A DNA stretch of 64,000 nt. Source: Collinsella aerofaciens (GTDB lineage Bacteria > Actinomycetota > Coriobacteriia > Coriobacteriales > Coriobacteriaceae). A program made the position numbers and the translations under genes. Positions 8,999 to 34,927 of the stretch are shown here, one piece after another (the first letter of the stretch is position 1; the number at the start of each line of letters is the position of its first letter). The stretch is from the NCBI RefSeq assembly GCF_020181355.1, contig NZ_CP084004.1, positions 868,001 through 932,000 of the forward strand, written 5' to 3'. The notes below the pieces were generated by a model. The model saw only the letters and a program-made list of their open reading frames with translations, did not search any database and was not told the origin of the DNA.

Positions 8999-9682
8999 AT
9001 GGAGGCTTACAAGCAAGAGTTCATCAAGTTCATGGTTGAGTCCGACGTTCTTAAGTTCGGCAGCTTTACGCTCAAGAGCGGCCGTCAGTCCCCGTTCTTT
9101 ATGAACGCCGGCGCTTACGTGACGGGCTATCAGCTCAAGAAGCTGGGCGAGTATTACGCCCAGGCCATCCACGATAACTTTGGCGACGACTTTGACGTCC
9201 TGTTTGGGCCGGCCTACAAGGGTATTCCGCTGGCTGTTGTTACCGCCATTGCCTACCACGAGCTGTACGGCAAGGAGGTCAAGTACTGCTGTGACCGCAA
9301 GGAGGCCAAGGATCACGGTGCCGATAAGGGCAACCTGCTGGGTTATGAGCCCAAGGACGGCGACCGCGTGGTCATGGTCGAGGACGTTACCACCAGTGGC
9401 AAGTCCATCGACGAGACCTATCCCAAGGTCAAGGCTGCTGCCGATGTCGAGATCAAGGGCCTGATCGTGTCCCTCAACCGCATGGAGGTCGGCAAGGGTG
9501 GCGTGACCACCGCACAGAAGGAGATCGAGGCAAAGTACGGTTTCCCCGTCGCGAGCATCGTTTCCATGGCCGAGGTCGTCGAGACCCTCTACAACCACGA
9601 GATCGACGGCAAGGTCGTCATCGATGACGAGCTCAAGATCGCCATCGATGCCTACTACAATCAATATGGTGCCCAGGAATAG
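8999..9682 (+). CDS. pyrE: Orotate phosphoribosyltransferase
   Basis: Converts orotate and PRPP to OMP, the fifth step of pyrimidine synthesis. At 227 residues it has the usual length. The PRPP-binding loop VVMVEDVTTSGKS lies at about 124-136, preceded by the FxLKSGRxSPFFMN signature near residue 20 and YKGIPLA near 73. ATG 8999 follows GAGAGGAG. No other pyr genes are adjacent; the 3' end runs straight into a conserved two-hairpin element at 9682-9756. Confidence 0.96.
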   Translation: MEAYKQEFIKFMVESDVLKFGSFTLKSGRQSPFFMNAGAYVTGYQLKKLGEYYAQAIHDNFGDDFDVLFGPAYKGIPLAVVTAIAYHELYGKEVKYCCDRKEAKDHGADKGNLLGYEPKDGDRVVMVEDVTTSGKSIDETYPKVKAAADVEIKGLIVSLNRMEVGKGGVTTAQKEIEAKYGFPVASIVSMAEVVETLYNHEIDGKVVIDDELKIAIDAYYNQYGAQE

Positions 9683-9756
9683 TTGCGCGGGTATCAGGGC
9701 AACAACCTGATATTTGAAGAGGGCGGCATGACCAGAAGGTCCATGCCGCCCTCTTT
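9682..9756 (+). terminator. Structured 3' element, copy A (terminator of pyrE)
   Basis: Begins at the last base of the pyrE stop codon. A small hairpin ATCAGG/CCTGAT (9693-9711) is followed by TTTGAA and a strong hairpin (9719-9753; GAGGGCGGCATG-ACC, loop agaa, GGTCCATGCCGCCCTC) with a TTT tail. The whole aligns with the elements at 14951 and 34660, with changes that keep the stems paired. It lacks the 3' half of the outer helix found in those copies. Confidence 0.75.
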
Positions 9757-9757
9757 C

Positions 9758-9800
9758 TAAAACCTGCCAAAAAGGGACAGGTTTATTTTGGTAGGTTTTA
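9758..9800. repeat. Palindrome of the GGGACAGGTTTATTTTGG family
   Basis: Arms TAAAACCTGCCAAAA (9758-9772) and TTTTGGTAGGTTTTA (9786-9800) with one mismatch around agggacaggttta. The same words recur at 10994-11030 and, in two inverted copies, at 21090-21168. Confidence 0.8.
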
Positions 9801-9828
9801 TCTGGGCAAACGCAGACCATCGACCAAC

Positions 9829-10113: not shown

Positions 10114-12619
<2,506 letters not shown>

Positions 12620-14389: not shown

Positions 14390-14947
14390 ATGAAAAAGAA
14401 GCTGCTGCTTGTGCCCCTCATGGCCGTCTTGGTTGCATGCGTGGTCGTGCTTTCCGGCTGTGGAGGTCCTTCGGTTGAGGAGCTCATCACCGAGGATCTT
14501 ACGACGCAGTTTGACGAGGTCAAGAACGGTGGCGACGACTTCCTCTCTGGTCTGGAGGAGGCTTCGGGCGACGAGTTCGAGCAGCTGGGTATCGATCCCA
14601 AGGAGTATGCCAAGACCTATCTCGAGGGCTTTGACTACAAGATCGGCGACGTGACGGTCGACGAGGACAAGGGCGTCGCGACCGCCGAGGTCTCTATCAC
14701 CTGCAAGTCTATGAACAAGATCGTCGAGGACTTCTCTACCCAGTATCAGGAGAAGGTCGCCGCGCTTGATACGGTTCCTTCCGATGACGAGCTGTACAAG
14801 ATGGCCGGTCAGGTTATGGTCGATGTGACCAAGGCCACCGAGCCCAGGAAGACCACGGTTATCTTCAAGTACACCTGCAACGACGACGGCGAGTGGTCTG
14901 CCGACGACTCCGTCAACTCCGAGATGATGGATGCAATGCTGAGCTAG
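14390..14947 (+). CDS. Small secreted lipoprotein
   Basis: A 185-residue lipoprotein: MKKK, hydrophobic core, lipobox LSGC at about 20-23, then an acidic globular domain of alternating helices and beta strands (YKIGDVTVDEDKGVATAEVSI). It resembles DUF5105-like lipoproteins in layout, but I cannot assign a family. GGGAGGAACAAC precedes ATG 14390. It is flanked by a terminator upstream and a structured element downstream, so it is monocistronic. Confidence 0.8.
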   Translation: MKKKLLLVPLMAVLVACVVVLSGCGGPSVEELITEDLTTQFDEVKNGGDDFLSGLEEASGDEFEQLGIDPKEYAKTYLEGFDYKIGDVTVDEDKGVATAEVSITCKSMNKIVEDFSTQYQEKVAALDTVPSDDELYKMAGQVMVDVTKATEPRKTTVIFKYTCNDDGEWSADDSVNSEMMDAMLS

Positions 14948-14950
14948 TTC

Positions 14951-15097
14951 GTTGCGGCGTTTTACCAAACGCCGCAACTGCTCGACGTTGCGCGGGCACC
15001 AGAGCGACAACTTGTCATTCAAAGAGGACGGTATGACCAGAAGGTCTATGCCGTCCTCTTTTCATGCCAATTTGTTCGCTCTGGTGTCCGCTCGCTG
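14951..15097 (+). ncRNA. Structured 3' element, copy B
   Basis: Starts 4 bp after the lipoprotein stop. Helix P0: GTTGCGGCGTTT/AAACGCCGCAAC, loop tacc (14951-14978). Outer helix P1: 14992-15007 with 15076-15091, 16 bp, one wobble. Enclosed are P2, GACAA/TTGTC (15006-15016), and P3, a terminator-type hairpin with loop agaa (15023-15059) and T-run. Copy C at 34660 has the same order of helices, the same tacc loop and related linkers, while stem bases differ in matching pairs. It probably acts as a terminator or processed 3' end. Confidence 0.6.
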
Positions 15098-15131
15098 TCC
15101 GTCCTCTACCTGCGGCGTTGCCATTGTTGGG

Positions 15132-15188
15132 GTAGTCGTTGGGGCGTTCTTGTCTGACTAGTCGTTTAAGAACGTCCCCAACGACTAC
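15132..15188. repeat. Long palindrome of the GGGGACGTTCTTAAA family
   Basis: GTAGTCGTTGGGGCGTTCTT (15132-15151) pairs with AAGAACGTCCCCAACGACTA plus C (15168-15188), with one bulged base; the spacer contains gactagtcg. Here the whole phrase is duplicated as an inverted pair, unlike the single-phrase copies at 7075, 9971 and 34928. Confidence 0.8.
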
Positions 15189-29436: not shown

Positions 29437-29475
29437 CCGACGCTGCAAACGCCCCTAAGCGGCAATCTGCAGCGG
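29437..29475 (+). ncRNA. Remnant of the structured 3' element (copy D)
   Basis: Immediately after the niaR stop the sequence ccgacgctgcaaacgccc and taagcggcaatctgc matches the P1 5' strand and P2 region of copy C (34690-34723). The outer-helix 3' strand and P3 are missing; a different terminator hairpin follows at 29493. Confidence 0.5.
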
Positions 29476-29492: not shown

Positions 29493-29544
29493 GCACAAAA
29501 AAAGGAGGCCTCCGCGGCGATGCGGAGGCCTCCTTTTTTTGTGC
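29493..29544. terminator. Bidirectional terminator between niaR and ferredoxin
   Basis: A perfect 23-bp stem (29493-29515 with 29522-29544, loop ggcgat) containing A7 and T7 tracts, so it works for both the nad operon and the convergent ferredoxin gene. Confidence 0.92.
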
Positions 29545-34242: not shown

Positions 34243-34659
34243 ATGGCCGAGGACAATAGGAATAAACCGCTGTACATGATCAGCGTGGCGGCCGAGTTGA
34301 CCGGCATGCACCCGCAGACTCTGCGCGTCTACGAGTCCAAGGGCCTGGTGAACCCCCAGCGCTCGGGCGGCAACACGCGTCTGTATTCGCGTGCCGATAT
34401 CGAGCGCCTAGAGCTCATCAACCAGCTGACCGACGAGGGCATCAACCTTGCCGGCGTGGTGCGCATTCTCGATATGAAGGAGCGTGCCGAGGAGCGCGAG
34501 CGCGAGAACGAAAAGCTCCGCGCCCGTGTGCGCCAGCTCGAGGACGAGCTGCACGAATACAAGATGCAGAAGAAGATTACCGCCCTGGCCCCGCGCGACG
34601 GCTCGGTCAACCCCGAACAGGTCATGCGCAAGCTGCTGGGCGCCGGCGGAGATCTGTAG
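34243..34659 (+). CDS. hspR: Heat-shock repressor HspR (MerR family)
   Basis: A 138-residue repressor. MerR-type winged HTH (about 12-80): YMISVAAELTGMHPQTLRVYE, GLVNPQRSGGNTRLYS. A coiled coil (about 84-115) provides dimerisation. In other actinobacteria HspR uses DnaK as co-repressor and binds promoters of dnaK and clpB. Fourth gene of the dnaK operon; shared palindromes before dnaK and clpB are its likely sites. Confidence 0.94.
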   Translation: MAEDNRNKPLYMISVAAELTGMHPQTLRVYESKGLVNPQRSGGNTRLYSRADIERLELINQLTDEGINLAGVVRILDMKERAEERERENEKLRARVRQLEDELHEYKMQKKITALAPRDGSVNPEQVMRKLLGAGGDL

Positions 34660-34806
34660 TTACGCGGGTTTACCAACCCGCGTAACCAGTCGACGCTGCA
34701 AGCCCGCCAGAGCGGCAATCTGCCTTTCAACTTCGACGGCATGATCAAAAGATCAATGCCGCCTTGTTTCAAGGCACCTTGCTCGCTCTGACGGGCTTTC
34801 GCTGTC
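34660..34806 (+). ncRNA. Structured 3' element, copy C
   Basis: Starts at the hspR stop. Helix P0: TTACGCGGGTT/AACCCGCGTAA, loop tacc (34660-34685). Outer helix P1: AGCCCGCCAGAGCG (34701-34714) with CGCTCTGACGGGCT (34784-34797), one mismatch. Within it are P2, GGCA/TGCC (34714-34724), and P3, CGGCATGATC-aaaa-GATCAATGCCG (34737-34761). Order, loops and the linker gtcgacgctgc match copy B at 14951, with stem bases changed in pairs. Confidence 0.6.
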
Positions 34807-34927
34807 CGCGCCAAAATATCGGCGTTGCCATGGCCCGGATGCGGCACTTGGGAACGTTCCTCACTTTGGAAATACGGCCCGCTCGCTGTCCGTTCTCTGC
34901 CTGCGGCGTCGACTTGCTCCGGATGGG

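Follow-up and report, generated by a model that had tools for sequence, protein, structure and literature searches.

A composite palindromic repeat at gene ends in Collinsella and its possible maintenance as a DNA-level hairpin

Four related sequences in a 64,000-nucleotide stretch of the Collinsella aerofaciens genome (NCBI RefSeq assembly GCF_020181355.1, contig NZ_CP084004.1, positions 868,001 to 932,000 of the forward strand; the whole stretch is referred to as the window) belong to a repeat family that, judged from its distribution among sequenced genomes, is old in the Coriobacteriales and has many copies in a group of Collinsella species. With a confidence that falls just short of even, the family is interpreted here as a composite palindromic repeat of the REP/BIME or MITE kind, which is homogenised by recombination and whose hairpin at gene ends is under selection at the level of DNA.

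Architecture of the element

Both B (14951-15097) and C (34659-34804) are made up of a short hairpin (H1), a linker, a long hairpin (HP2) and the foot TCGCTG. The features in the window, numbered from its first letter, are:

9682..9756 (end approximate), forward strand: copy A, truncated, without H1 and without the outer right arm; directly past the stop of a presumably pyrE-like gene
14951..14978, forward strand: H1 of copy B, 12 bp with loop TACC; starts 3 nt past the TAG at 14945-14947
14979..14991, forward strand: linker of copy B, TGCTCGACGTTGC; family consensus YCGACGCTGC, with CGTC on the opposite strand
14992..15091, forward strand: HP2 of copy B, an imperfect palindrome of ~100 nt
15092..15122, forward strand: right foot TCGCTG of copy B with the variable tail TCCGTCCTCTACCTGCGGCGTTGCC
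29437..29470 (end approximate), forward strand: copy D, linker and left-arm fragment; directly past the stop of a gene that we take to be niaR-like
34659..34686, forward strand: H1 of copy C, whose first G doubles as the third base of the TAG stop codon of the MerR gene
34687..34699, forward strand: linker of copy C, CAGTCGACGCTGC
34700..34798, forward strand: HP2 of copy C, of a sub-type unlike that of B (AAGCCCGCCAGAGCGGCAA...)
34799..34804, forward strand: right foot TCGCTG of copy C
34875..34909, forward strand: what remains of the right end of an older element, located downstream of copy C (CGGCCCGCTCGCTGTCCG...)

B and C can be aligned over 141 nt at 71% identity (E 1e-13). In agreement with a preliminary description of this DNA, both carry a 12-bp hairpin with loop TACC at the stop codon or 3 nt past it, followed by the linker TCGACG(T/C)TGC, which lies between H1 and HP2, and by a long hairpin. 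In turn, HP2 is a hairpin of ~100 nt that comes after the 12-bp H1 and the GACGCTGC linker. The same description had placed a tiny helix, GACAA/TTGTC, within the outer helix; this, however, would require a hairpin within the left arm whose loop is a single base, and the pairing that is supported joins the left with the right arm around a TC/TC loop (GCGACAA with TTGT-T-CGC in B, GCGGCAA with TTGC-T-CGC in C), interrupted by a conserved bulge, by mismatch loops and by a bulge at the apex. In B, HP2 contains the TC/TC internal loop, a second mismatch loop, two bulges and the apex GACC-AGAA-GGTC. The predicted folds are very stable, with -91.6 kcal/mol (z -13.5) for B and -79.1 kcal/mol (z -9.0) for C, and for neither copy was any of 200 dinucleotide shuffles as good. 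The element is multi-copy and structured and is indeed not a single simple terminator hairpin, as had been remarked before.

The order of the unit is stop codon, H1 (optional), YCGACGCTGC, HP2, CTCGCTG and variable tail. The bottom strand of the linker reads GCAGCGTCGR and thus contains CGTC, CGCTG directly flanks HP2 on either side, and the core of HP2 across families is approximately ATCTTGCCnTTCA ... TTCAnGGCAAyCT.

With respect to the partial copies, A matches B over 75 nt at 83% identity (E 4e-17 to 6e-17), and D matches the left end of C over 36 nt at 83% identity (E about 1e-5); D, which was said to keep only the middle of the element, actually retains the linker and the left arm. That all four copies lie behind unrelated genes holds, since the domains encoded upstream all differ: a phosphoribosyltransferase domain at A, a 258-aa protein without Pfam match at B, MerR at C, and HTH_11 with 3H at D.

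Other repeats adjoin two of the copies. One of them (AAAACCTGCCAAAAAGGGACAGGTTTATTTTGG..., window 9759-9803) starts where copy A lost its right arm and has matches at 10988, 21087 and 21141. A palindromic repeat (GTCGTTGGGG(A/C)CGTTCTT... AAGAACGTCCCCAACGAC) is located at 15133-15188 downstream of B, and similar sequence follows several other copies.

Copy number and taxonomic distribution

The family is considerably larger than the four copies initially counted, and the expectation of further genomic copies was borne out in this genome, in the genus and in the order by covariance-model searches. Model R1 comprises both hairpins and was built from 17 copies of this genome in an alignment of 55 pairs, which omits copies without full H1 or full length (L004/L046, L015, L018/L053, L022) as well as those found later. 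In the 2.28-Mb genome, 28 matches span the model at 80 bits or more, in addition to fragments and opposite-strand echoes, and on reading a good H1 is absent in at least four of these 28 (L046, L049, L051, L053). At E <= 0.01, R1 matches 34 of 43 genomes of the genus, and 21 of the 43 have at least 27 matches, echoes included; at E <= 0.001, 46 of 65 genomes from the genus and the other genera of the family are matched.

A second model, R2, represents HP2 alone (35 sequences) and at E <= 1e-5 finds matches in at least 73 of 197 genomes and at least 25 of 89 genera of the order, both figures being lower bounds with 20 candidates scored per genome. Among 30 R2 loci read in 16 genomes, 13 have GACG(C/T)TGC directly before HP2, and in 12 others HP2 starts -12 to +1 nt from a stop codon. 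Because linker motif and stop abutment lie outside R2, most of the order-wide loci are considered real homologues. G106 and G127, from a different family of the order, have HP2 variants whose apical part is longer (117-121 nt), with up to 15 matches per genome.

Searches with apex patterns gave matches in C. aerofaciens, C. tanakaei, other Collinsella, an uncultured Coriobacteriaceae and an Eggerthellaceae MAG, among 80 listed loci of at least 120 matched stretches, and one such pattern had 0 matches in viral_contigs, where carriage by phages would be visible. No Rfam family reached its gathering score in the window or in nine distant loci; at copy B, there were sub-threshold matches alone, mostly to microRNA families. 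Judged from titles and the beginnings of abstracts, no description of the element is apparent in the open-access literature searched.

Placement at stop codons and termination

In 21 of the 28 copies of this genome, the match begins -14 to +4 nt from the stop of a long sense ORF. Likewise, an open frame of at least 60 codons ends within -6 to +4 nt of 48 of 60 sampled copies from other genomes, a sample drawn from the top of the R1 matches and therefore in favour of typical, high-scoring copies. The host genes, as far as we recognise them from their translations, presumably include prfA, htpG, rpoC, lysS, tyrS, ileS, queA, proB and others. According to a crude gene call, the next neighbours of the 28 copies are co-directional in 15 cases, convergent in 8 and otherwise arranged in 5; at L006 and L048, this gene call picked an antisense ORF upstream, contrary to the stop-codon analysis.

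The TAG that precedes H1 is often the stop codon of the host gene. A role of TAG as insertion target was considered and rejected: TAG is found at 43 of the 48 abutting copies from other genomes, yet it already accounts for 25 of 45 stops in the window (crude ORF set), sites common to several genomes are not independent, and host genes ending in TGA and TAA occur in other families.

The abutment to stop codons in one orientation suggests a function as gene-end punctuation, and it is easier to understand from a role in the transcript or in termination than from a function in DNA only. A structured 3'-UTR RNA would accommodate this placement behind genes read by us as prfA, rpoC, lysS, tyrS and ileS; in such a case, H1 and HP2 would fold in the messenger RNA and terminate transcription, block 3' exonucleases or be processed. 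The very high stability of the RNA fold, the strong two-sided covariation together with the kept mismatch loops (see below), and the A- and T-runs at the apical stem in some sub-types are also in its favour, as are inverted repeats of other kinds which, as assessed by eye, follow the same stop in several outgroup loci of the site of copy C. Overall, we regard this explanation as a serious one that is nevertheless unlikely to be correct, as no Rfam family was matched at gathering score and as the following observations on termination, exchange and mismatches point in another direction.

The run of T ending at the right-hand loop has a length of 4-5 in 11 of 31 own-genus rows and of just 2-3 in all 26 other-genus rows, so that a T-tract terminator is unlikely to be a common property of the family, as far as this can be read from sequence. 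In addition, a terminator scan flagged no copy of the element. This counts only weakly against the transcript-level explanation: the scan also missed an obvious terminator at ~29497-29540, since T-runs paired with A-runs escape its rule, and its silence therefore does not exclude termination.

At the C site, the outgroup loci L245, L250 and L251 have long palindromes from other families, starting a few to ~20 nt from the same stop (by eye). Placement of palindromes beside stop codons may be general in this group of bacteria.

Paired changes and exchange of modules at fixed sites

In the alignment of 17 copies of this genome, 92.6% of the cells at the 55 pairs are paired. Two-sided changes are present at 32 of the 55 pairs and amount to 141 cells, in comparison to 46 +- 4.7 cells in shuffles and 9-33 cells with slid partners. 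The paired base changes that had been reported for the window copies are thus corroborated, and the helices covary, whereas the number of further pair types in the same copies does not exceed that in shuffles (46 vs 46.7).

A comparison of sites between genomes sheds light on how these changes came about. Fifty-four of the 60 sampled copies from other genomes reside at 18 of the 28 sites known from the present genome, and at nine of the 18 multi-genome sites there is more than one sub-type, the other half having a single one. Of 98 same-site pairs with an upstream flank at least 93% identical, 28 have elements less than 80% identical. Mean identity is 0.878 between copies at the same site, 0.775 between different sites in different genomes and 0.751 between different sites in one genome, a comparison that omits seven weak own copies by name and others shorter than 140 nt by length. 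Since same-site copies remain more alike on average, exchange between copies appears to be frequent but not complete.

The comparison at the B site covers 22 of 30 fetched loci, 19 of which have an alignable upstream gene. In 18 of these 19, two of them cut by a contig end, the element lies directly past the same stop and is represented by at least four left-arm types, despite upstream genes that are ~85-99% identical; the nineteenth locus (L148, upstream gene 71%) is without an element. The 30 loci at the C site comprise 12 with full elements of differing sub-types, that of the present genome among them, six with remnants (G012, G019, G025, G030, G031, G034), three without the upstream gene, and nine outgroup loci holding other sequence. 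It follows from the B-site, C-site and 60-copy comparisons that the positions are inherited and that modules (H1, arms, apex, tail) are exchanged. At the B and C sites, no locus of the element-bearing clade was found to be a clean empty site. HP2 itself might be an insertion with a CGCTG duplication, but a clean empty allele was not found, and the two loci L022 and L321 resemble deletions.

Individual loci illustrate rearrangements within the palindrome. A stretch of 22 nt in the right arm of L221 is perfectly complementary to the left arm, the TC loop included, while the same-site sister L213 has a normal right arm; the copy at 610833-610965 of this genome (G000:C1) has an inverted apex; and L138 is a mosaic of a B-type left and a C-type right part with mispaired arms. 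H1-linker units are doubled in L199 and L055 (one site), L235, L315, L316 and L381, and these, together with the nested old right ends at the C site, show in their sequences that additions have happened. Template switching at imperfect palindromes is a known route of mutation (PMC7202029, PMC3820800), and allelic recombination between strains could account for part of the exchange pattern.

The paired changes are thus largely sub-types swapped as blocks, which explains them better than messenger-RNA function alone. They had previously been regarded as what selection on an RNA or cruciform fold would leave. They need not be a mark of RNA selection, because copies trade sub-types while staying at their sites, one arm can serve as the template for the other (L221) and G·T is not enriched on the sense strand; the cruciform, or DNA, half of that proposal fits somewhat better.

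Conserved mismatch loops and the strand of the fold

After removal of 10 antisense rows, the TC/TC mismatch persists in all 26 other-genus rows and in 30 of 31 own-genus rows. Of 30 loci from genomes that are more distant or R1-negative, 26 have it and four have lost it. As arm-to-arm copying alone would erase mismatch loops, their retention argues for selection and represents the best evidence for selection on structure. It also bears on a neutral origin, in which ordinary terminators were duplicated by chance or as an expanding repeat and template switching alone kept them paired. Template switching in the palindrome has been seen (L221) and would maintain complementary arms without selection, but it should have erased the loops that are kept in 26/26, 30/31 and 26/30 cases; together with the short T-runs outside some own-genus sub-types, the stop abutment and the recurrent GACGCTGC and CTCGCTG feet, this renders a neutral origin very improbable.

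If a fold is selected in the sense RNA, G·U should be tolerated and A·C should not. Counted over both hairpins of 68 distinct genus copies, there are 24 G·T and 38 A·C cells, H1 alone contributing 6 G·T and 0 A·C. For isolated mismatches of HP2 in an unbiased arm alignment, A·C exceeds G·T by 64 to 32 (p = 0.0014; 167 distinct arm pairs in 30 clusters), and with one representative per HP2 cluster by 21 to 9 (p = 0.04). A left-arm motif filter excluded 19 of 186 arm pairs from this analysis, several of which are genuine copies of known sub-types; when it is omitted, with clustering at 75%, the counts are 72 A·C and 33 G·T (41 clusters). Twelve tRNAs from the same loci gave 15 G·T and 0 A·C, a soft control in that ARAGORN structures favour standard and G·T pairs. 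On the sense strand, T is more frequent than A in the 3' flanks, so that mutation bias would favour G·T.

The absence of a G·U preference on the sense strand and the excess of A·C over G·T in HP2, unlike in tRNAs, are evidence from sequence against selection of HP2 as a sense RNA. With regard to the strand that folds, this one mismatch statistic is at most a hint at the bottom strand. Against the DNA interpretation it has to be held that the hint comes from one statistic, that a fixed-structure count of HP2 in other genera is equal (G·T 43, A·C 42), and that H1 in a wider set has no clear bias (A·C 12, G·T 9; 76 hairpins, some of which are not real H1s).

Transposases and insertion sequences

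Alternatively, the element could be a non-autonomous transposon that is active, its single-stranded hairpin being the substrate on which a RAYT/Y1 (HUH) transposase acts to move it. An orthologue of such a RAYT gene (>=70% identity) is present in 20 of the 21 genus genomes with at least 27 matches, the exception being G030, and in G032 (11 matches, 72% complete), but absent from the remaining 21 genomes of the genus (0-13 matches). The doubled H1-linker units, which suggest additions, are also compatible with transposition, and the kept mismatch loops resemble what TnpA-REP requires of its substrate in E. coli (PMC8266576). However, the co-occurrence of RAYT gene and element may reflect one clade, and in 16 of 20 readable orthologues, this genome's included, the catalytic tyrosine is replaced by serine. 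Moreover, no element match at E <= 0.001 was obtained in 31 fetched Y1_Tnp/RAYT loci (2-4 kb, partly overlapping), at several of which other REPs are present (by eye), and there was no Y1_Tnp match in the element-bearing genomes G044, G046, G131, G127, G191 and G017, some of which are incomplete drafts. A clean empty site was also not found in the clade. An active transposon is for these reasons regarded as improbable. RAYT was rejected as the cognate mobiliser in spite of the clade-wide correlation, and because of its catalytic loss, of the lack of an adjoining element and of the genomes without Y1_Tnp, homologous exchange is favoured over current transposition.

The RAYT gene itself (G000:C1:2143801-2144607; L124, L260) and its orthologues (L253-L273) have retained their reading frame in many Collinsella species, and in six orthologues arginine takes the place of one HUH histidine. 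Its sequence would be in line with a gene that has possibly been domesticated.

In five loci (L034, L043, L180, L186 and L233), the element is followed, at one and the same point (CGCT^), by the sequence CATATGACCCAATCC.... Two of these are located in this genome (L034 at C1:223256, L043 at C1:2221213), where the sequence runs into a long ORF, and the others in G009 (L180), G001 (L186) and G018 (L233, at the C site). The ORF at L034 encodes an IS110-type transposase (Transposase_20 and DEDD_Tnp_IS110), and from the common junction the element seems to be a target of this insertion sequence. REPs, too, are targets of insertion sequences (PMC1525189).

A model for maintenance and its implications

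In the interpretation given at the outset, sequence would spread mainly by ectopic recombination (gene conversion) between copies, with template switching inside the palindrome as a second route, rather than by frequent new insertion. Selection would keep the hairpin and its mismatch loops as a DNA structure, either as a cruciform or in a single strand, perhaps the bottom one. By analogy, the kept mismatch loops suggest recognition by a protein, which might read HP2 in the way TnpA-REP reads REP. As the weakest step of this model, the unit might act as gene-end punctuation in termination, insulation or protection of mRNA 3' ends, a role that would account for its position right next to stop codons in the sense orientation.

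A more far-reaching version, which we consider distinctly doubtful, holds that the elements are order-wide gene-end DNA hairpins whose bottom-strand pyrimidine mismatch loops are read by a conserved host protein. They would then form one recombining pool of stop-locked 3' cassettes, with positions inherited, sequences shared within a genome and pairing restored by arm-to-arm copying.

The strong covariation found here is owed in large part to block exchange and arm copying, which calls for caution in the discovery of RNA motifs in repeat-rich genomes. Comparing G·T with A·C by strand is a test needing nothing but sequence that can help to separate RNA from DNA structure. If a host protein indeed reads the kept mismatch loops, this would be an undescribed gene-end system behind core genes, and the repeat family in addition provides markers that vary between strains of a common gut genus.

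Comparison with known systems

In mycobacteria, MIRUs are small repeats that are likewise found at gene stop codons, but they are direct tandem repeats that are not known to have the fold of the present element. Palindromic candidate structured RNAs from human microbiomes have paired structures on both strands and are said to be terminators or REPs (PMC8040213); no Collinsella 3' element appears in the passages of that study that were consulted, and an unnamed overlap is possible.

Bacterial MITEs of the RUP, NEMIS, Nezha and ERIC class, as covered in Di Nocera 2013 (PMC3733652), have a length of 70-300 bp and long inverted arms, lie beside genes and are non-coding, all of which they have in common with the element; unlike for MITEs, no target duplication is proven, and a clean empty site was not found.

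TnpA-REP of E. coli needs conserved mismatches in folded single-stranded DNA and recognises one strand (PMC8266576). The imperfect hairpin with conserved mismatches is a feature that REP of E. coli shares with the element (PMC8266576), in contrast to which the RAYT orthologue of Collinsella mostly lacks the catalytic tyrosine, no element adjoins it, and several element-bearing genomes have no Y1_Tnp.

According to Di Nocera 2013, REPs and BIMEs are built from GTAG- and CGTC-tagged palindromes of 20-40 bp, the CGTC class being without a dedicated transposase (PMC3733652); a word search of that article for Actinobacteria or Collinsella had no result. The element differs from REPs in that HP2 has ~100 nt and is coupled to a second hairpin, H1 alone (28 nt) being of REP size, in that a GTAG tag is not evident at the hairpin foot and CGTC is located in the linker, several nt from either stem, and in that it abuts stop codons tightly. 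Unlike in the GTAG class, there is no cognate RAYT gene flanked by the repeat among the 31 loci. In common with REPs, on the other hand, it occurs in many dispersed copies downstream of genes (28 in the genome, 21 of them at a sense stop), and the resemblance to REP/BIME extends to dispersed intergenic palindromes that are mostly downstream of ORFs, fall into varied sub-types and are targets of insertion sequences (PMC3733652). Although it departs from REPs in size and in the lack of a cognate RAYT, and from MITEs in the lack of proof of insertion, the element works like a REP/BIME or a MITE.
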